A stretch of 40,027 bases of DNA from Actinomycetes bacterium (GCA_025463875.1 JAODBI010000081.1:1-40027), one strand, 5' to 3'. Numbered from the stretch's first letter, positions 21,745 through 40,027 are shown. Notes: generated from the letters alone by a model not told the origin. Numbers and translations are program-made.

Positions 21745-21775
21745 CCGCGGGCGACCTCACCGCAGGTCCTGCCGC

Positions 21776-24700
21776 GTGGCAATGCACGAGGTGAGCACAC
21801 CTGAATTCGACGGCGAGGGCGGAACCGTCTGGACCAGACTGAACGACGTGCCCGCCCGTGTCTCCAGCTCTCGGTTCGTCGGCCGCCGGGCCGAGCTGAC
21901 GTGCCTCGAAGAGACCTGGAAAGCGGCGGTCGCCGAAGAGCACGCCGGCATCGTCCTCATCTCCGGAGAGGCCGGGGTCGGCAAATCCCGGCTCGTCTCC
22001 GAGCTCGTCGAACGGGTCCCCGAACCGGCACTCGTGCTCGTCGGGCAATGCTTCGACCTCGCCGATCGCGCGCTCCCGTTCGGACCCATCGTGCAGGTAC
22101 TGCGCACCCTCCACCGGACGCTGGATGACGCGACCTTCGACGCGGTCGTGGGTCCGGGACGGGACGAGCTCGGCGCGCTGCTGCCCGAACTCCACGCCCC
22201 CACGCGCGAAGGCATCGTCGCGGGCGCGCTGTTCGAACAGCTGCTCGGGGTGTTCGAGCGACTCACCGAACGAGTACCGACCCTGCTCGTGCTCGAAGAC
22301 CTGCACTGGGCCGACCGTTCGACGCGGGAGCTGTTCGTCTATCTGGCCGGCAGCCTCCGCCGCGCGTCGATGGTGCTCGTCGGCACGTACCGATCGGACG
22401 ATCTCCATCGTCGTCATCCCCTGCGGATCCTGCTCGCCGAGCTCGATCGCTCCGGGAGCATCGAACGCATCGATCTCGCCCGGTTCGATCGCGACGAGGT
22501 TCGTGAGCTCATCTCCGCGATCGTCGGCGGAGAGCCGCCGGCCGATCTGGTCGAGCGCACCTTCCTCCGCTCGGACGGCAACGTCTTCTTCGCCGAAGAG
22601 CTCCTGGCCGTCGACGACGACTACGGACCGTCGATGCCGCCGACGCTGCGCGAGATCGTGCTCGCCCGCGTCGACGGACTCTCCGACGCCGCGCAACAGG
22701 TGCTGCGGTGCGCCGCGGTGATCGGCCGTTCGGCCGATCACCGGCTCCTCGAAGCCGCCGCCGAGCTGCCGCGTGCCGATCTGCTGGCCGGGGCACGCGA
22801 AGCAGTCGCGCAACACCTCCTGCTCACCGACGGCCTCGGGCTCGAGTACCGGTTCCGCCACGCGCTCGTGCGCGAGGCCGTGGAGGAGGACCTCCTCCCG
22901 GGCGATCGCGTCGTACTGCACACGCGCGTGGCCCAGGCGCTGACCGACCATCCGGGCTGGTTCGACGGAGGTACCGCGCAGGTCTTCGCCCAGCTCGCGG
23001 CACACTGGGATGCGGCCCGAGACTCACCGCGCGCGCTGGTCGCCGCGCTCGACGCGGCGCGCGCCGCCGAGCACATCTACGCGTACGGCGAGGCACTCGA
23101 CCGGGCCGAACACATCCTGGCCCTCTGGCCCCAGGTACCCGATGCCGAGTCTCTGACCGGCATGCACCACATCGACATGCTTCGCTACGCGGCGGTGCAG
23201 GCCGAGATGTCGGGCGCCACCGATCGCGCCCTCGACTACGTCAAGGCCGCTCTCGCCGAGGTCGAACCGAACGAGGATCCCGTCATTGCCGGGCTTCTCC
23301 ACGAACGCTACGGCCGGTATCTCTGGATGCTCTCCCGCTCGTGGACCGACATCCTCGAGCATTGCCACGAAGCAGTCCGCCTCGTACCCGACGAGCCGAG
23401 CGCGGCGCGCGCGAAGGTGCTCGCCACGCTCGGCCAGCAGTTGATGCTCGCGGCGCGCAACGGCGAAGCCGTCACCGTGTGCGAGGAAGCGATCGCCGTT
23501 GCGCAGTCGGTCGGTGAGCGCGTGATCGAGGGGCATGCGCGCAACTCGCTCGGTACGGCGCTCGGCGGCATCGGCCGGATGGACGAAGGGCTCGCCGAGC
23601 TCCACCGGGCGCGCGAGATCGCGCTCGAGACGCAGTCGTGGGCCGATGTCGCACGCGCCGCCGTCAACGAGGGTGGCGCGCTACAGACGATGGCGCGCCA
23701 CGAGGAAGCCGTGTCGATCTCACTCGACGGCGCGGAGATCGCGCGTGCGCACGGTCTCGACCGCGCGTTCGGCATGTTCCTTCGCCTGAACGCGGCCGAG
23801 TCCCTGCGCATCCTCGGCCGTTGGGACGAGGCCGACGAGCAGCTCCGCGAGGTCGAGAGTGCCGACCCGCTCGGCATCGACGAATGGCGCCTCGCCGGGC
23901 AGGAGTGCCTGCTCGCGGTCGGACGCGCCCGGTTCGACACCGCGCGCCGCAATGCGGAGCAGATGCAGGCCGTGCTGCGCGAGGAGAGCTCCCCGCGCGA
24001 CAACCTCGCGATCGAGCATGCACTCGTTGCGATCGCAGCGTGGAGCGGCGACGAAGCACGAGCATTGCAGCTCACGGTCGATGCGATGGGTGCGCCCGTC
24101 GACGCCCTGAGCTTGTGCTCCGACGTGGGCATCGAAGTGCTGATCGAAGGAATCGGTGCGGGTGCGTCGGCCGCATCGCACGCCCGCGACGACGCCACCC
24201 GGACGGCGATCGTCCGCAACGTGGACGACCTCGGCGGACTCCTCGACTCATGGATCGACGCCGATCGTTGGGACGGCGGCAAGCCCGGCGCGTTCGCCGC
24301 GCTCCGAGCCCACATCGCCGCCGAGGTCGCGCGCGCATCCGCGACCGACGCCCCTACCGCGTGGCTCGAGGTCGCGGAGCTGTGGGCCGGTCACGGCATG
24401 CGGCCCCGCGCCGCGTACGCGCACTTCCGGGCGGCCGAGGCATTCCTGCGCGACGACGCGCGCGATGCGGCCGCGCCGAGCGCCCGCGAGGCGTACGAAC
24501 TCGCGAGCTCCATCGGGTGGACGTGCCTCCGCGACGCCATCGTCAGCTTGGCGCGGCGCGGCCGCCTCGATCTGGGAGTCGTCAACGACGCTGGGCCGTC
24601 GCCCGCCGACCGTTACGGTCTCACCGCCCGCGAGCTCGACGTCATCGCACTCGTGGCCGAAGGTCGAACCAATCGTCAGATTGCCGACGCGCTCTTCATC

Positions 24701-24820
24701 TCGGTGAAGACCGCGAGTGTCCACGTCTCGAACATCCTGGGCAAGCTCGGAGTGAGCAACCGCGGTGAGGCCGGAGCGGCCGCCCGGCGTCTCGGCCTCT
24801 CGCCCTCCGCCGACTCGTAA
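21776..24820 (+). CDS. Large ATP-binding LuxR-family (LAL) transcriptional regulator
   Basis: This 1014-residue regulator has the LAL layout. Residues about 33-310 form an AAA/STAND ATPase, with Walker A GEAGVGKS (64-71) and Walker B [12 protein letters not shown] (169-180). Residues about 370-930 are TPR-like helices, for example [28 protein letters not shown]. Residues about 947-1010 are a LuxR helix-turn-helix, [45 protein letters not shown]. Such proteins respond to unknown effectors and hydrolyse ATP to activate transcription. The start may be GTG 21776 or ATG 21782. The TrmO gene follows after 62 bp, so read-through is possible. Confidence 0.92.
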   Translation: [1014 protein letters not shown]

Positions 24821-32108: not shown

Positions 32109-32663
32109 TCACATCGTCGTGGTCGTCCGGGATGCCGATCCGACGGGGACGTCGTGCATCGCGGGCCGGAGGCGGTGAGGCATCGCCCACCCCGTCCGTG
32201 CCGCCCCACCCGGCGACACCTGTGCCGCTCCGGCCCGCGAGCCCGCGACCTGACCGACCCGAGGGGGCAGTCCAGTCAGGCCCGAACACCGCGCCGCCAA
32301 CCGCGGGCACACGGCCCGCAGCGCGGCGCATTCGTGCGCGTTCATGACGAACAACGTCGTCGTCACGACGGTGCGATAGGTCTCGGGTTCGACGACCGCG
32401 TTCCCGAGCCCGTCGATCGTTCCCAGCCACTCACCGTCGCGCAGGACGCGGCGCAGACCGACCGCCGAGGTCGCGACGATCCGGCCGCGCACGATCACCG
32501 CAAGCTGCGCCGGGCGCTCGCCCGGCCGGCTCACCAGCCGCCGGGGCGTGACCTCGACGATCGTCCCGATGCGTTGCAACGCGCTGAGCTCCCGCTTCGA
32601 GAGATCGCGGAACAACGGCGTCGTCGCCAGGGCCTTGATGTCGCCGGGCAGTCTGCAGAGCAT
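32109..32663 (-). CDS. Degenerate cyclic-nucleotide-binding-domain protein
   Basis: The first about 125 residues have the beta-roll layout of a cNMP-binding domain: IKALATTPLFRDLSKRELSALQRIGTIVEVTPRRLVSRPGERPAQLAVIVRGRIVA. The phosphate-binding cassette, normally GELALLxxxxRxAxV, reads GTIDGLGNAVVEPETYRTVV. The Glu and the Arg-Ala pair are not recognisable, so cyclic nucleotide binding is doubtful. There is no helix-turn-helix. After about residue 130 the sequence becomes Gly/Arg/Ala-rich and may be a read-through tail in GC-rich DNA. CCGGAGGCGACGAG precedes ATG 32663, a strong ribosome-binding site. Confidence 0.65.
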   Translation of the reverse strand: MLCRLPGDIKALATTPLFRDLSKRELSALQRIGTIVEVTPRRLVSRPGERPAQLAVIVRGRIVATSAVGLRRVLRDGEWLGTIDGLGNAVVEPETYRTVVTTTLFVMNAHECAALRAVCPRLAARCSGLTGLPPRVGQVAGSRAGAAQVSPGGAARTGWAMPHRLRPAMHDVPVGSASRTTTTM

Positions 32664-32766: not shown

Positions 32767-33228
32767 TCAGCCCGGCGCCGCTCCGTCACCCACCGGCGGT
32801 TGCGGACGGTCCTGGCGGTTCCTGTCCCAGTTGTCGAACTCGTCCCCGCTCAGCGCCGGCCGTGATGTCGTTGCCACGCCGAGCTGTTGCAATGCCCCGA
32901 TGAAGTCGATGTAGCGGTAGTACTCCCAACCGCCGGGACTGGCGGCGCAGGCGTGCACGAACGTCGTACCGCGCAGTTCGAGCTCGATGTACGTCGGCGG
33001 CACGCCGAGGAAATCGCCCGTGTGCGTGCAGCGGTAGACCCACGGCACGACGACGAGATGGTCCGAGGTCGCGAGCGCGTCATTCGCGTCGAGCCCGGAC
33101 TCGTGGAGCTCCGGACTGAACCCGCGGGAGGTGACCATCCCCGCGAATCCCTCGACGACGTCGGCTTCGACGCTGCGCGAGGCCTGCTCGATGACATTGG
33201 GTTCGAGGGGACCTTCCGGGCACGACAT
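32767..33228 (-). CDS. SnoaL-like/NTF2-fold protein
   Basis: This 153-residue protein resembles SnoaL-type polyketide-cyclase/NTF2-like domains. It has a helical first half, then TSDHLVVVPWVYRCTHTGDFLGVPPTYIELELRGTTFVHACAASPGGWEYYRYIDFIGALQQLGV. The final helix, IDFIGALQQLG, is characteristic. Such small cone-shaped domains bind hydrophobic ligands or catalyse isomerisations or cyclisations. GGAGGCGAC precedes the ATG at 33228. It starts 13 bp after the stop of the 272-residue gene, so the two are an operon. Homology is inferred from motifs only. Confidence 0.68.
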   Translation of the reverse strand: MSCPEGPLEPNVIEQASRSVEADVVEGFAGMVTSRGFSPELHESGLDANDALATSDHLVVVPWVYRCTHTGDFLGVPPTYIELELRGTTFVHACAASPGGWEYYRYIDFIGALQQLGVATTSRPALSGDEFDNWDRNRQDRPQPPVGDGAAPG

Positions 33229-33241
33229 GTCGCCTCCGTCC

Positions 33242-34060
33242 TCAGGGCTTCGCGATGGGCGCAGCGGGCGGGACGTACCGGCGGGGATCATCGAGCACCC
33301 CGCCCTCCCGCTCCGCCGGTGCCACACACTCGACCGACGTCTTGTCCTTGGCGACCCACACCACCTTCGGAATCTGGATCTGTCGGTAGCCGGCGCCAAC
33401 GGTCGACAACTTGATCGTGCGCGTGTAGTCCTCGTGGCCGACGACCCACATTCCTTTCTCGAGGCCCGCCCGCTTCGGCGCCCGGCTCTCGGGCGGATGG
33501 GCGTAGTCCTCCGCGGTGTACGCACCTTGGTTCGCGTGCACCGGACGCGTGATCTTCGCCGTCAGCGGATATCCGTACGCAGCCGGCGTCGTGATCAGCA
33601 AGCTCACGTGACCTTCGTCCTTGGCCGCCTCGCGCCACAGGACCCAGCACTGGAACCACGGTCCCTGGCAGATCCAGTACACGTCGATCGGCCAATGCCG
33701 ACCACTGGATGCCTTCGCGTCGTCGGGCACCGGATCGCCGTGCTCCAGACCGAACGACATCTCGATGGCGCGGATCATCCCCTCCCGCATGATGATCTCG
33801 GGGTTGCCGTCGAAGCCGACCCAGAACATCGGTTTCGCACCGATGCCGAACCAGTCTTCGTTCAGGTGCTTCTTGCGGGCGGGCTCGTCCATGTAGTCCT
33901 TGTCGAGATTCGCGGAGTCGAACCCGACGAGGTCGGCGAGCGCGACACCGGCACGGAGATCGCGGAGGATACGGGCGCGCGTCGCGGGTTGGGCGAGCTT
34001 GCTCTCCATGACGCTGAGGTACGGACCCTTCTCGACGAGATAGGGCATGAATCCGGACAT
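33242..34060 (-). CDS. Conserved-looking protein of unknown function (272 aa)
   Basis: I do not recognise this protein. It is intact and well coded, starting MSGFMPYLVEKGPYLSVMESKLAQPATRARILRDLRAG. The middle is rich in Trp and Tyr (HWPIDVYWICQGPWFQCWVLWREAAKDEGHVSLLITTP). Later parts read RPVHANQGAYTAEDYAHPPESR and GYRQIQIPKVVWVAKDKTSVECVA. No signal peptide or membrane helix is evident, and the aromatic richness suggests a ligand-binding soluble protein. GGGGGTGCCC precedes the ATG at 34060. It is in an operon with the SnoaL-like gene, which hints that both handle the same hydrophobic compound. Confidence 0.8.
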   Translation of the reverse strand: MSGFMPYLVEKGPYLSVMESKLAQPATRARILRDLRAGVALADLVGFDSANLDKDYMDEPARKKHLNEDWFGIGAKPMFWVGFDGNPEIIMREGMIRAIEMSFGLEHGDPVPDDAKASSGRHWPIDVYWICQGPWFQCWVLWREAAKDEGHVSLLITTPAAYGYPLTAKITRPVHANQGAYTAEDYAHPPESRAPKRAGLEKGMWVVGHEDYTRTIKLSTVGAGYRQIQIPKVVWVAKDKTSVECVAPAEREGGVLDDPRRYVPPAAPIAKP

Positions 34061-34170: not shown

Positions 34171-37100
34171 TCACACGGTGGGAATCACGCGCAGGACCTC
34201 CACGGGAACCTGCAGTCCCTTGAGGCGGTGCGCGCCGTGTGGCTCGAACGCCCAGTCGAGCCCGCGCGCGATTCCGGCGACGTCGGAAGTGACGAGCACC
34301 TCGTCGGGCCGGGCGAGCTCGAGCACCCGGAACGCGAGTGTGACGGCGAGACCGATGAGATCCCGCTCGATCATCGTCGGCTCTCCGGCCGACAACGCGA
34401 TCTTGACGCGCAGTGGTCCGGCCCGCGCCGATCCGAAGTCGTGTGCCAACGCGCGCGCGCAACACAACGCCCCGTTCACGGAGAAGAACCACGCGCCGAT
34501 GCCGTCACCCGTGTGCTTGAACTCGACACCGTCGAACTCGTCGAGACGCCGGCGGATGATCTCGTCGTGTGCCCGGAGGCGCTCGACGTATTCGCGGTCG
34601 CCGAGGCGATCGTTCAGCGCCGTGGATCCGACGAGGTCGGTCACGAGGAGCACGCGCGTCGCGGGACGAGCTTCGTGCTCGGCGCGCGGACTCGCTCGGC
34701 GCGCGCTCCGTCTCCGGCCGGCGGCGGGCACGGGATCGGGATCGGAGATCGACGCCCGCGCGTCCGCGGCTCGGGTGAGCAGTTCCTCGGTACGGGGTCC
34801 GTCGATCACGCGCGCGTAGTCGAGTGCGGTGCGCGCGACCTCCGCAGTCGCGTGCGCGTCGTCTGCATCATTCAGCGCGCGCTCGAACCAGATCTCGGCG
34901 TCGACGCGACCGCTGCTCGCGAGACCCAACGCGATGACCCGGGGGATGAACGACGGCCAGCCGATCGCGAACCGCATGCCGCGCTCATAGGCCTCGACCA
35001 GGACTTCGAGCAGATCGGGGACGAGATCCGGACGACCCGCGAGCGCGGCCAGCTCGACCTGGGCCGCCAGCGCACCGGTCAAGAACGCGTCGGTCGGTTG
35101 CATCCCCGCGAACACGCGGAACGCCGGGCGTTCCAGCGCGTCATGCGCTGCATCGACACGTCCGACAAACGCGTCGACGAGCGGCCGGTAGCGGCGACCA
35201 CGCGCCGCGCCCAGCGCGTCCCACATGTCGAGTGCTTCGTGCGCGCCGGCCGCGTCGCCGCGATGGGCGCGCGCGGCCGCGAGCGCGGGGAACACCACAG
35301 CAGGGGTGAACGGTGTCTCGGCTTCCCGGTAGGCGCGCAATGCCCGCTCCGCATGGAGCTCGGCGGTCGCGAAGCGGCCCTTCACCGCCGCCACCGCCGT
35401 CTGGAACGCATCCGCCATCGACAACTCGCGCGGATTGTCGACGTGACGCGCCGCCTCGCCCGCATCCGCCAGCAGCTCGTCGGCGCGATCGAGGTCGGCG
35501 GCCGCATACGCAGTGACTCCCAGGCGTGACGTGCACCAGATGTGCGGGTTCGGGTCGGCCAAGGTCTGCGCGAGAGGGAACGCGCGCTCGAACCAAGCCT
35601 TCGCCTCGGGCAGTTCCACACTGCCGAGATGCTGAAGACCGCGTGCAAAGGCGATCCGGACGCGCAGCTCCGCGTCCTCGGCCTCCTCGGCGCAGGCCTC
35701 GGCCGCCGCATTGTGACGATTGGCGGCTCCGAAGTCACCGAGGTCGAAGTACAACTCGGCCTCGAGCGCGTGCACTTCACCCCGCAGTGCCGGATCGTCG
35801 CTTCCGAGATCCAGGAACTCGTCCAGGCTCGCCAGACTGCGCGCAACCGCCGGCTGCAACTGCAGCGTGCCGACCCGCTCGCGCGCGAGATGGACGAGGG
35901 CGCGCCCCCAGACGTCGGCCGCACCGCACGAACGGGCGCGTTCGGCCACGGCCTCGAGCTTCTGCACGGCCCCCACGTCGCGTGCGAGGTGTGCCGCGTG
36001 CGCGGCGCGGAACTCCAACGTGGTGAGCTCCCGCTCGGAATGCGCCATCTGCTCGGCGGCGTCGACTGCGACCGCCGCGTACTTCGCCGCGTCGCGCCAC
36101 GCACCCACGGCCGCCGAACGATCGGCTGCCTCACCGCAGACGCGCAGCAGGCGCGCGGGTTCCGCGAGCGCGCCGGCGCGGACCAGGTGGTGGGCGATCA
36201 TGCGGACGTCGGTGTCCTCCGGCTCGAGCCGGTCGGCGAGCTGCAGATGACGAGCCGCGCGTTCGCTGGCGGCGGGCCAGTGATACACGAGTTGGCGAAG
36301 CTGCGGATGCGCGAACCAGTACCGCTCGTCGTCGGCGACGAGCAGCTGCTGGCCGGCTGCTTCGTCGATCAGGACATCGAGCTCGTCTGCATCCAGCGCG
36401 CACGCGGTTGCGAGGAGCTCGAGGCGCGCTCCTCCGCCCAGGAACGCGGCCGAGAGCAGCATCTCTCCGCACGCGTCGCCCACGTGCTCGACGCGCCTCC
36501 AGAGCTCGTGATCGAGATCTGTGGGTCCGACCAGATCGGCGACGGCAGAATCGGTGATCGCACTTCCCAGATCGTGGAGTCGACCGAGCGTCGAGCGCAG
36601 CACCAACGGATTGCCCGCGGTGGCCTCGAACAAGCGACTACTCGTTGATCGCGACGGGCGCGCTCCCAACCATTCCGCGGTCAGCTCGCGACATTCCGGC
36701 TCGGTGAGCGCGTCCAGATCGACGCCGACGGTGCGCGGTTCGCGACGTAGGCGCGCGATGAGCGTGGCCGCGGGCGCGTCCGGATCGGGTGGGCGGCTCG
36801 TCAGCACGATCAGCAGCCGCGTGCGATCGAGCTCACCGTCCTCGCCCACGACCACGAGCGTGTGTCGTAGGAGCGACAGCGTCGCGTCATCGACCCAGTG
36901 AAGATCCTCCAACAGCAGCAGCGTGACGCGTTGGCGCGCCGCGGTGAGGAGCCAGCGCGTCGCCGCAAGGAACAACGCGAGGCGCGAGCGATCGTCGTTC
37001 GCGCCCGCGTTGCCGAATGCGACCTGCTCGAAAGGATTCGGCATCGAGTCGAGGGCCGCGAACGCGCTCGCGAGCGGGAGGTACGGAACGGCGTCGTCCT

Positions 37101-38220
37101 CCTGGCATGCGCCCGCCAGCACCTGCACGCCGCGCGAGACCGCGTGGGGCGTGAACTCGTCGAGCAACCTCGACTTGCCGATGCCGGCCTCACCCGTGAT
37201 CAGGACGATCTGCGGAACACCGTTGCTCGCAGTCTCCAGTGCGCTCTCGAGCAGCTGCAGCTCGGCCGCCCGGCCGACGAAGAGGTCGACGTCGTTCGCC
37301 CGCATCGTCGGGACGGAACGCAGCAGTGCCGCCGGTCGGCGCCGCCGACCCTGGACCCGTCCGGTCGCGGCGGGATGCGCCGACATGCTGGAGGGAAGCG
37401 GGGCCGAGCCGGCCGGGGGCGCGTCGGCCGGCGCAGTCGCAGCGGCCGAACCCGGGGCGAGGCCGAAGCCGCCGAGGTCCGGCCAGTCCGGCAGAGGTTC
37501 CTCACGCAGGATCGCGGTCTCGATCGCGTTGAACGACGCGCTCGGGTCGACACCGAGCTCGTCCCGAAGCACCTCCCGCAGACGGGTGACGACGCGCAAC
37601 GCCTCGGCCGGCCGACCGTCGCGCGCGAGCGCGATCACGTGCAGGGCCCACAACGGCTCGCGTAACGGGTTGCGGCTCGTTGCCGCATCGAGCTCCGCGA
37701 TCAGTCCTGCGGTCAGACCGGTGCCGATGGCGCTCACGGCCCAGGCTTCGAGCGCGTCGAGCCGCAGCTCCTCCAGGCGAGCGGCTTCCGCAACCGCCCA
37801 GGCTTCGTTCGCGAACTCCGCGTACGCACGCCCGCGCCACATGTCGAGCGCGGCCCGCAACGCGTGCATCGCAGCCGCCGGATCGGAACGCGCGCCCGCG
37901 CGTGCTTGACCTGCCGCGCGTTCGAACCGTTGCGTGTCGACATCCGATCCGTCGACCTCCAGCACGTATCCGGCGGGGGTCGTACGCAATCCTTCGATCC
38001 CGTACCTCCGGCGCAGCTGGTAGACGAAGGTCTGCAGGGTCGTCGTCGCAGAACGCGGCGGCGCCCCGTCCCAGAGATCGTCGATCAGGCGTTCGGCTGA
38101 CAGCGTCTCGCCCGCGTCGACGAGGAATCGAGCGAGCAGCGCGCGTCGTTTCGGCCCGGTAACCGTCACGGCTCCGCCTGCGGTCGAGACTTCGAGCGGT
38201 CCGAGGACTCGGAACTCCAC
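34171..38220 (-). CDS. SARP/AfsR-type regulator fused to an AAA ATPase and a class III cyclase domain
   Basis: This 1349-residue protein starts at GTG 38220 (VEFRVLGPLEV). An OmpR-type DNA-binding domain covers about 1-90 (RALLARFLVDAGETLSAERLIDDLW) and a BTAD domain about 95-245. A Pro/Ala linker runs about 250-305. An ATPase follows with Walker A GEAGIGKS (343-350) and Walker B LLLLEDLHWVDD (434-445). TPR-like helices run to about 1150, and a class III adenylate/guanylate cyclase domain occupies about 1185-1349. The two metal Asp residues (TDLVGST; HTGDG), the Lys and the late Asp (ERDLIG) are present, but VNxAxR reads VTLAFR, so the transition-state Asn is Thr. It probably senses a signal and regulates genes; whether it makes a cyclic nucleotide is open. 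The 4-kb gene is divergent from the PEP mutase gene. Confidence 0.9.
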   Translation of the reverse strand: MEFRVLGPLEVSTAGGAVTVTGPKRRALLARFLVDAGETLSAERLIDDLWDGAPPRSATTTLQTFVYQLRRRYGIEGLRTTPAGYVLEVDGSDVDTQRFERAAGQARAGARSDPAAAMHALRAALDMWRGRAYAEFANEAWAVAEAARLEELRLDALEAWAVSAIGTGLTAGLIAELDAATSRNPLREPLWALHVIALARDGRPAEALRVVTRLREVLRDELGVDPSASFNAIETAILREEPLPDWPDLGGFGLAPGSAAATAPADAPPAGSAPLPSSMSAHPAATGRVQGRRRRPAALLRSVPTMRANDVDLFVGRAAELQLLESALETASNGVPQIVLITGEAGIGKSRLLDEFTPHAVSRGVQVLAGACQEDDAVPYLPLASAFAALDSMPNPFEQVAFGNAGANDDRSRLALFLAATRWLLTAARQRVTLLLLEDLHWVDDATLSLLRHTLVVVGEDGELDRTRLLIVLTSRPPDPDAPAATLIARLRREPRTVGVDLDALTEPECRELTAEWLGARPSRSTSSRLFEATAGNPLVLRSTLGRLHDLGSAITDSAVADLVGPTDLDHELWRRVEHVGDACGEMLLSAAFLGGGARLELLATACALDADELDVLIDEAAGQQLLVADDERYWFAHPQLRQLVYHWPAASERAARHLQLADRLEPEDTDVRMIAHHLVRAGALAEPARLLRVCGEAADRSAAVGAWRDAAKYAAVAVDAAEQMAHSERELTTLEFRAAHAAHLARDVGAVQKLEAVAERARSCGAADVWGRALVHLARERVGTLQLQPAVARSLASLDEFLDLGSDDPALRGEVHALEAELYFDLGDFGAANRHNAAAEACAEEAEDAELRVRIAFARGLQHLGSVELPEAKAWFERAFPLAQTLADPNPHIWCTSRLGVTAYAAADLDRADELLADAGEAARHVDNPRELSMADAFQTAVAAVKGRFATAELHAERALRAYREAETPFTPAVVFPALAAARAHRGDAAGAHEALDMWDALGAARGRRYRPLVDAFVGRVDAAHDALERPAFRVFAGMQPTDAFLTGALAAQVELAALAGRPDLVPDLLEVLVEAYERGMRFAIGWPSFIPRVIALGLASSGRVDAEIWFERALNDADDAHATAEVARTALDYARVIDGPRTEELLTRAADARASISDPDPVPAAGRRRSARRASPRAEHEARPATRVLLVTDLVGSTALNDRLGDREYVERLRAHDEIIRRRLDEFDGVEFKHTGDGIGAWFFSVNGALCCARALAHDFGSARAGPLRVKIALSAGEPTMIERDLIGLAVTLAFRVLELARPDEVLVTSDVAGIARGLDWAFEPHGAHRLKGLQVPVEVLRVIPTV

Positions 38221-38286
38221 GCAGTGCCGCCTGTCCGAGGCGTTGTCGCCGCCGGAGAGTGTAAAGCGAAAGGCCGGACGGGTGCG

Positions 38287-39126
38287 ATGAGTTCTCGGCC
38301 CGCCGACGGTCTTACCGGCATGACCCTCGACATCGCTCAGCCCGATATCGCTCATCTCGGTGAGCTCGCCCGACAACTCCGGGCGCTCCACCGGATCGGT
38401 ACTCCTCTGGTGCTCGTCAACGCGTGGGACGTCGCCAGCGCGAAGCAGATCGAAGCGGCGGGATGTGCCGCGATCGCAACCTCGAGCGCCGCGTGCGCGG
38501 CGGTGCTCGGGATGCCTGACGACAACACGATGGCACCGGAGGTTGCGCTCGGGATCTTCGGTCGCATCGCGAGCCACGTCTCGGTGCCGCTCACCGTCGA
38601 CTTCGAAGGCGGTTACAACCTCTCCGCGGACGAGCTGGTCGAGGGTCTCCTGAGCGCCGGCGTCGTCGGATGCAACATCGAAGACTCCGACTACGCGGGT
38701 GCCGGTGCGCTCGTCGATTCCGACGTCCACGCCCGGCGCCTCGCCGACATCCGGGGCGCCGCCCTGGCGTCGGGCGTCGATCTCGTGGTGAATGCGCGCA
38801 TCGATACGTTCATCCGCTATCCCGAACGCAGTATCGACGAGTCGATGCAGGACACGATTCGCCGGGCGCGCGCATATCTCGACGCCGGCGCCGACTGTGT
38901 TTACCCGATTCGCGTCACCCAGCCGACACTCGTCGGCGAGCTGGTTGCAGCCCTCGACGCGCCCGTCAACGCGAACATCGACCCGGCGGTGGGGATCGAA
39001 GCGTTGGCCGCAGCGGGAGCGGCGCGCGTCTCGGTGGGTCCGACCGCATTGAGCGCCGTCATGCGCGACCTCCGACGACGGACCGCGCTCCTCCTCGGTG
39101 GCGACGTCGGCGGCTTCCTCGCCTGA
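38287..39126 (+). CDS. PEP mutase/isocitrate lyase family protein
   Basis: This 279-residue alpha/beta-barrel protein of the isocitrate lyase/PEP mutase superfamily has PLVLVNAWDVASAKQIEAAG, VPLTVDFEGGYNLSADELVE, the metal-binding Asp and Glu in VGCNIEDSDY, and VVNARIDTFIRYP. It lacks the catalytic Cys loop of true isocitrate lyase (KKCGH). Members cleave or rearrange C-C or C-P bonds of 2-oxo or phosphono acids; the substrate is unknown. I prefer ATG 38287 (preceded by GGACGGGTGCG) to the later ATG 38320; the track start at 38224 is rejected. It shares a 66-bp divergent region with the SARP-AAA-cyclase gene. Confidence 0.85.
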   Translation: MSSRPADGLTGMTLDIAQPDIAHLGELARQLRALHRIGTPLVLVNAWDVASAKQIEAAGCAAIATSSAACAAVLGMPDDNTMAPEVALGIFGRIASHVSVPLTVDFEGGYNLSADELVEGLLSAGVVGCNIEDSDYAGAGALVDSDVHARRLADIRGAALASGVDLVVNARIDTFIRYPERSIDESMQDTIRRARAYLDAGADCVYPIRVTQPTLVGELVAALDAPVNANIDPAVGIEALAAAGAARVSVGPTALSAVMRDLRRRTALLLGGDVGGFLA

Positions 39127-39297: not shown

Positions 39298-39816
39298 CTA
39301 GTCCTGCTTGAGCTCCTTCTGCTTCGCGTCGGCGGCGAGCATGAGATCGTCGAGCGTGCCCGAGGCCGCACTGCGGACCATGCCTGCAGTCAGGGTGAGA
39401 CCCGAGAGCGACGACAGATCGTCGCTGAGCGCGCGCACGCCGTCGATCGCAGCCAAGGCCTCGTCGGTGCAGTCGGTGAGCAGGACCGCGAAGCGGAACG
39501 TGTCGATGCGGCCGACGAGGTCGCTCGCCCGGAAGGCCTTACGCAGCTGGCCGGCCATCATCATCAACACACGGTCGATGGTCGCGTCCTGCTCGGGCGA
39601 ACGAGCCGAGTCGGCGTGGTCGAAGTCGAAGTACGCGAGCGCGATGGGAGAGTCGCGGCGCTGACACGACACGTACATCGGTGTCGCCGCCGCGACGAAA
39701 CCGGCGCGGTTCCAGACGCCGGTGAGATCGTCGATGCCGACGGTCTCCGACGTGTGACCGTTTGCCTGACCATTCACTCGGGTTTTCGTACGGCTCACGA
39801 CTCGCCTCTCCCTCAT
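39298..39816 (-). CDS. Degenerate GGDEF-domain protein
   Basis: This protein of about 172 residues is a GGDEF (diguanylate cyclase) domain. GIDDLTGVWNRAGFVAAA is the usual start, IALAYFDFDHADS carries the metal-binding Asp, and ASDLVGRI...FAVLLTDC is the active-site hairpin. Where GGDEF should stand the sequence reads DTFRF, so the GTP-binding glycines and the catalytic Asp-Glu are gone and cyclic di-GMP synthesis is not expected. A short N-terminal basic segment precedes the domain. I start at ATG 39816 (GGAG 6 nt upstream); GTG 39798 also has a strong site. No PAS or membrane sensor is visible. The role is probably regulatory or structural. Confidence 0.82.
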   Translation of the reverse strand: MRERRVVSRTKTRVNGQANGHTSETVGIDDLTGVWNRAGFVAAATPMYVSCQRRDSPIALAYFDFDHADSARSPEQDATIDRVLMMMAGQLRKAFRASDLVGRIDTFRFAVLLTDCTDEALAAIDGVRALSDDLSSLSGLTLTAGMVRSAASGTLDDLMLAADAKQKELKQD

Positions 39817-40027
39817 TGCACGCTCCGATGACTCGAATCGCCGGCTCCGGACGCGAGCGGTCGCCGGTCCGGGACGTGCACATGAGGTCGGCACGTTGAC
39901 GCGCACCCTTGATTGCGGAATACCCACAGCTGGATTGCGGGGCCGACGAACACGACCCGAATAGGCAACCGCGCGTTCGCGGAATCCACTGATATCGTCA
40001 CAAACAGTTGTCATGTTTCGGCATGGA
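39817..40027. other. Upstream region of the GGDEF gene, end of window
   Basis: This 211-bp stretch has an arginine-rich open frame (the long track ORF to 40014) that does not look like protein. The last about 80 bp have lower GC. No -35/-10 pair stands out. It may hold the promoter of the GGDEF gene and the edge of a neighbouring gene. Confidence 0.4.

Follow-up and report, generated by a model that had tools for sequence, protein, structure and literature searches.

We report that P0001, a 1349-residue protein from an Actinomycetes bacterium, is a real, conserved and lineage-restricted variant of the known large SARP and cyclase-STAND regulators. In one chain it joins a SARP head, a STAND ATPase, a helical TPR-like region and a C-terminal class III nucleotidyl cyclase. 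The gene lies in a stretch of 40,027 nucleotides (GCA_025463875.1, JAODBI010000081.1:1-40027), called the window below. By a modest preference, we read P0001 as a STAND-type SARP activator with a genuine, probably active adenylyl cyclase tail, in which opening and pairing of the protein would couple transcription to cAMP.

Domain make-up, neighborhood and conservation of P0001

P0001 is encoded by a single unbroken minus-strand frame, with a GTG start at 38220 and a stop at 34171-34173. The features of the protein and its surroundings are listed here in window coordinates.

34171..38220, minus: SARP-AAA-TPR-cyclase protein P0001 (1349 aa, GTG start; ortholog L011/L025)
37486..38220, minus: SARP domain (winged helix and BTAD), residues 1-245 (Pfam BTAD/Trans_reg_C; EmbR and AfsR matches)
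36841..37290, minus: STAND/AAA_16 ATPase core, residues 311-460 (Pfam and direct reading)
34771..35940, minus: helical TPR-like region, residues 761-1150 (weak TPR_MalT)
34174..34662, minus: class III nucleotidyl cyclase domain, residues 1187-1349 (PDB sequence matches, AlphaFold model, structure match)
34339..34341, minus: codon of Thr1294, at the 'transition-state Asn' position (alignment to cyclase relatives)
38221..38319, no strand: divergent intergenic region of 99 bp, with a heptamer-like direct repeat inside
33242..34060, minus: gene of a 272-aa protein, downstream on the same strand as P0001, found only alongside the SARP-cyclase gene
32767..33228, minus: SnoaL/NTF2-like gene, downstream on the same strand (PF07366, E=9e-6, just under the cut-off)
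32202..32663, minus: degenerate cNMP-binding-like gene, downstream on the same strand (PF00027, E=0.024, below the cut-off)

The head carries an OmpR-type winged helix (Trans_reg_C, residues 22-72) followed by BTAD (residues 94-238, E=5e-33), both above the Pfam cut-off, and residues 2-244 match EmbR (2fez, E=2e-29) and AfsR (8hvr, E=3e-28) in a PDB sequence search. The ATPase is matched by AAA_16 (residues 314-456, E=2.5e-24), and direct reading finds both its Walker A (GEAGIGKS, 343-350) and its Walker B (LLLLEDLHWVDD, 434-445) intact; Pfam returns no NB-ARC match in P0001. TPR_MalT is weak in P0001 (residues 897-986, E=9e-5) and reaches E=9e-7 in the ortholog. The first-pass annotation had described this four-part chain with the right length and coordinates, to which we add that it is read from the minus strand.

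A whole ortholog of P0001, 89-90% identical from end to end, is present in a second genome from the genus (G003; JAUZEI010000209.1), within about 12 kb of collinear sequence at 85-91% DNA identity. Between these two orthologous copies, from which conservation was judged, the protein as a whole has a dN/dS of 0.14. Its domains give similar values, 0.141 for the SARP, 0.116 for the AAA and winged-helix region, 0.115 for the TPR region and 0.136 for the cyclase, while the short linker leading into the cyclase is higher, at 0.75. Purifying selection acts on the cyclase, and because its dN/dS resembles that of the other domains and the ortholog is intact, it is maintained as part of P0001. An assembly chimera or a recent, accidental and functionless fusion might be suspected in a genome of 403 contigs with few orthologs to compare, but the same full-length protein with its flanks in the second genome, together with the low dN/dS, refutes this highly improbable reading. 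The intact syntenic relative and the dN/dS likewise rule out an assembly artefact, a pseudogene or a decaying fusion. The protein has a narrow distribution: a full-length match is absent from two other genomes of the genus, and its cyclase occurs in only two of 58 genomes sampled from the order, those of P0001 and its ortholog, the next best matches being short proteins (E~1e-32). GTDB contigs were also scanned with two short peptide patterns (at least one hit; a non-exhaustive scan).

From their spacing, P0001 and the same-strand genes downstream of it are plausibly co-transcribed. The first of these, encoding the 272-aa protein, has no family match in Pfam or NCBIfam and a poor predicted structure (pLDDT 36); among 41 relatives it is confined to the two genomes that encode the SARP-cyclase, and it is possibly a dedicated partner of P0001. 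A degenerate cNMP-domain gene does exist nearby, as had been pointed out, with a weak match to its family; its product is 94.8% identical to the copy in the relative. A PEP-mutase family gene is divergent from P0001. Elsewhere in the window, we observed an ECF-type sigma factor that ends in a SnoaL-like domain (919-2049, minus) and, near the cyclase region, a GGDEF (diguanylate cyclase) domain protein (39298-40014, minus).

Upstream of P0001, the direct repeat CGGTAAG-N5-CGGCGGG (38299-38317, minus) is a weak candidate for a SARP operator. It is kept in the ortholog as CGGTGAG-N5-CGGCGAG (L025:1873-1891) and resembles the PimR heptamer CGGCAAG, with a spacer of 5 bases here and not 4 (PMC5930380). 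The general pattern CGGYRRG-N5-CGGYRRG is found 50 times genome-wide, compared with 23 occurrences of a reversed control, and hence is not specific. Another repeat of this pattern, at 21756-21774 (minus), abuts a LuxR-type AAA (LAL) gene (21776-24820).

The cyclase domain and Thr1294

The cyclase falls below the Pfam threshold (PF00211, Guanylate_cyc, 15.3 bits versus a cut-off of 21.9). A PDB sequence search nevertheless matches residues 1187-1336 to LipJ/Rv1900c (E=3e-17) and Ma1120 (E=9e-14), and an AlphaFold model for which 50 related domains served as input (pLDDT 94.9, pTM 0.90) has its best PDB matches in the crystal structures of these same two proteins (TM 0.87-0.90). Alignment to both confirms that the two metal Asp residues (D1195 and D1239), the Lys (K1235) and the Arg (R1298) are retained, as previously noted, and adds D1287, which completes with K1235 a substrate pair of the adenylyl cyclase type. 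The resulting set, D1195/K1235/D1239/D1287/R1298, is the pattern of the active Ma1120, save for a Thr here versus an Ala there. Because the metal Asp residues, the Lys/Asp pair and the Arg are all kept, the domain is likely to be active: our best guess from its sequence is an active adenylyl cyclase, and from the Lys/Asp pair we infer a preference for ATP. Against an active tail stand its sub-cut-off Pfam score, its long branch in the cyclase domain tree, where the nearest sampled non-ortholog is ~2.4 substitutions/site away, and two SARP fusions that have lost catalytic residues. One of these (L041, minus strand, 1316-aa frame) is a SARP-pseudocyclase-AAA protein with the metal and Arg residues gone and a QSEETL pattern; the other (L033, 431-3118, plus) carries a SARP, then an alpha/beta hydrolase, then a cyclase-like domain that has lost its catalytic residues, so that a LipJ-like half is joined to a SARP.

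The first-pass annotation had singled out a Thr in place of the transition-state Asn as an altered catalytic residue. The Thr is present as described (VTLAFR, within GLAVTLAFR; T1294, where textbook cyclases carry Asn), but the significance attached to it does not survive comparison with relatives. Across 83 non-redundant related domains, a sample skewed to relatives of P0001, the site holds His in 35, Asn in 19, Val in 13, Thr, Gln and Ile in 5 each, and Asp in 1; judging from this alignment, Asn is a minority residue (19/83) and does not define the cyclase subgroup of P0001. Thr with an otherwise intact motif recurs in two other proteins, L126, whose motif is almost identical to that of P0001 (VTLASR, within GRTVTLASR), and L135. 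When the solved structures are aligned, Rv1900c has His at the site and Ma1120 has Ala; His402 of Rv1900c is reportedly dispensable. Ma1120 is active with its Ala, and changing this Ala to Asn drastically lowers its adenylyl cyclase activity and abolishes its guanylyl cyclase activity (PMC4215837). Because the site varies among relatives and Ma1120 is active with Ala, T1294 is no evidence of altered or lost catalysis, and we reject the Asn-to-Thr change as evidence that the chemistry is lost or new. Full activity with Thr, which would have undercut the earlier argument, thus finds a counterpart in spirit in Ma1120, for Ala and not for Thr itself. More generally, a missing 'catalytic Asn' in actinobacterial cyclases should not be taken as loss of function.

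The domain might instead be a non-catalytic, or nearly non-catalytic, module for nucleotide binding or dimerization, which would sense ATP or a cyclic nucleotide and so tune the SARP. We consider this unlikely on the whole, though it has a case. Non-catalytic roles do occur among SARP-cyclase fusions, since L041 and L033 carry pseudo-cyclases; an allosteric role of this kind has been proposed for Mclx2/Mclx3 (PMC4452763); and Thr is unable to do exactly the job of Asn. What speaks against it is that the metal, substrate and Arg residues of P0001 are all kept under purifying selection and that the Asn site varies among close structural relatives, one of them active.

A possible coupling of transcription and cAMP synthesis

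Class III cyclases need a dimer to form their active site, and because they work only as dimers, STAND-driven pairing could switch on both halves of P0001. In the mechanism that we favor, the AAA and TPR parts would hold the SARP inactive until a putative signal and ATP binding open the protein, by analogy with AfsR, in which the NOD and TPR parts inhibit the SARP and ATP relieves this inhibition (PMC10936776). The opened SARP would then form a side-by-side dimer on direct repeats and recruit RNA polymerase, while two cyclase tails, brought together by this opening and pairing, would produce cAMP. Local gene activation would thereby be coupled to a diffusible messenger, and the first candidate targets would be the divergent gene and the operon of P0001 itself. 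A stricter version of this mechanism, in which cAMP synthesis by P0001 takes place at the promoter and requires the STAND switch to open, one dimerization controls both outputs and the tail regulates the SARP head, seems to us rather unlikely.

The cyclase may also be active and yet fused to the SARP as a mere convenience of co-expression, with cAMP and DNA binding uncoupled and cAMP acting through a CRP-type protein or through the cNMP protein encoded three genes downstream. The position of the cNMP-like gene in the same co-directional run, its 95% identity in the relative and the presence of at least seven other cyclase domains in the genome are consistent with such an arrangement; however, the cNMP-like protein is a very weak match (E=0.024) whose phosphate-binding cassette is not recognizable by eye, and the P0001 fusion stays intact with its length conserved. 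We regard the uncoupled arrangement as improbable and retain the coupled activator as our reading. The anatomy of P0001 supports the earlier domain identifications and the earlier proposal that the protein regulates from DNA and senses or produces a nucleotide, but not the weight put on the Asn-to-Thr change.

Domain orders and comparison with known systems

Domain orders were surveyed at ~140 loci with SARP or cyclase domains, drawn from each rank from genus up to phylum. By order, and with a few loci fetched twice included in the counts, the frames comprise SARP-AAA (55), CYC-AAA (25), SARP-CYC-AAA (8, from five distinct proteins), AAA-CYC (5), SARP-AAA-CYC (3, from two distinct proteins), SARP-CYC (2, from one) and CYC-SARP-AAA (1). 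The expectation that cyclase-AAA proteins usually carry the cyclase at the N terminus holds in this sample (25 CYC-AAA versus 5 AAA-CYC frames). The exact order SARP-AAA-TPR-CYC occurs only in two genomes of the genus of P0001 among the sampled loci, so that the arrangement is as rare as had been suspected, but the pairing of a SARP with a cyclase recurs in other orders; because these orders vary, the pairing has arisen, or its parts been reshuffled, several times. By Pfam, L029 and L137 are SARP-Guanylate_cyc-NB-ARC proteins, and L126 and L128 are protein kinase-AAA_16-TPR-Guanylate_cyc proteins; L027 and L035 have single changes among the cyclase catalytic residues. The SARP-CYC-AAA frame of L027 is very long (2135 aa) and has another AAA domain around residue 1451. 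Another locus (L072; G018 contig 417, 1-6000) holds at least four cyclase genes in tandem on one strand, with frames of ~440-580 aa or more.

Cyclase-bearing proteins give the AAA-TPR part of P0001 higher scores than plain SARP-AAA proteins do, which suggests that its AAA-TPR-CYC tail is one module. This tail may derive from the kinase-cyclase family, toward which the AAA-TPR scores lean; in the tree the cyclase is a long branch that has no close partner. Proteins of this family, which resemble TOMM_kin_cyc (L021, L126 and L128), have an AAA_16-TPR-C-terminal cyclase tail that can be aligned to that of P0001, but begin with a Ser/Thr protein kinase where P0001 has a SARP. P0001 itself is not a TOMM_kin_cyc protein (TIGR03903): it has no kinase and scores 72.7 bits versus a cut-off of 705.75.

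The SARP-CYC-AAA proteins of related actinobacteria (L027, L029, L035, L041 and L137) share with P0001 a SARP, a class III cyclase and an ATPase. Unlike in P0001, their cyclase lies between the SARP and the ATPase, and the ATPase of those that were run against Pfam matches NB-ARC as well. Rv1900c (LipJ) and Ma1120 belong to the same cyclase subgroup and fold as P0001, with a residue other than Asn at the same site. Rv1900c has an alpha/beta hydrolase as its fusion partner, and neither protein is known to be fused to a DNA-binding domain. A 2004 actinobacterial survey uses the phrase 'bacterial transcriptional activator domain' and may already mention a BTAD-cyclase protein (PMC2447327).

AfsR-type large SARPs have in common with P0001 the order SARP-STAND ATPase-TPR and, likely, an autoinhibition gated by ATP (PMC10936776), whereas their NTPase is of the NB-ARC type and P0001 has an AAA_16 and an additional cyclase. 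P0001 was rejected as an AfsR equivalog (NF053617; 136.7 bits versus a cut-off of 1430). Transcription factors that contain a cyclase and a STAND domain have long been known from the Mclx/CHD-AAA-LuxR proteins of mycobacteria (Rv0386, Rv1358 and Rv2488c), which also combine a cyclase, a STAND ATPase and a DNA-binding domain in one chain, and for those Mclx proteins that lack canonical residues allosteric sensing of ATP or cAMP has been proposed (PMC4452763). Their layout is reversed, with the cyclase at the N terminus and LuxR at the C terminus, while P0001 has its SARP at the N terminus and its cyclase at the C terminus. The SARP-LAL regulators of Streptomyces (PimR, SanG, FilR and PolR) resemble P0001 in having an N-terminal SARP and an ATP-binding C-terminal half like that of cyclase-AAA/LAL proteins (PMC5930380; PMC10972967), but the published ones are described as being without a guanylate cyclase signature, and P0001 has a complete C-terminal cyclase.

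The architecture of P0001 is therefore uncommon and not isolated: it is a reshuffle of known parts, one that bridges the SARP-LAL proteins, with their cyclase-type ATPase half described without a cyclase, and the cyclase-STAND-LuxR proteins, and that offers a natural construct in which to ask whether DNA binding and cAMP synthesis are under the joint control of one STAND switch.
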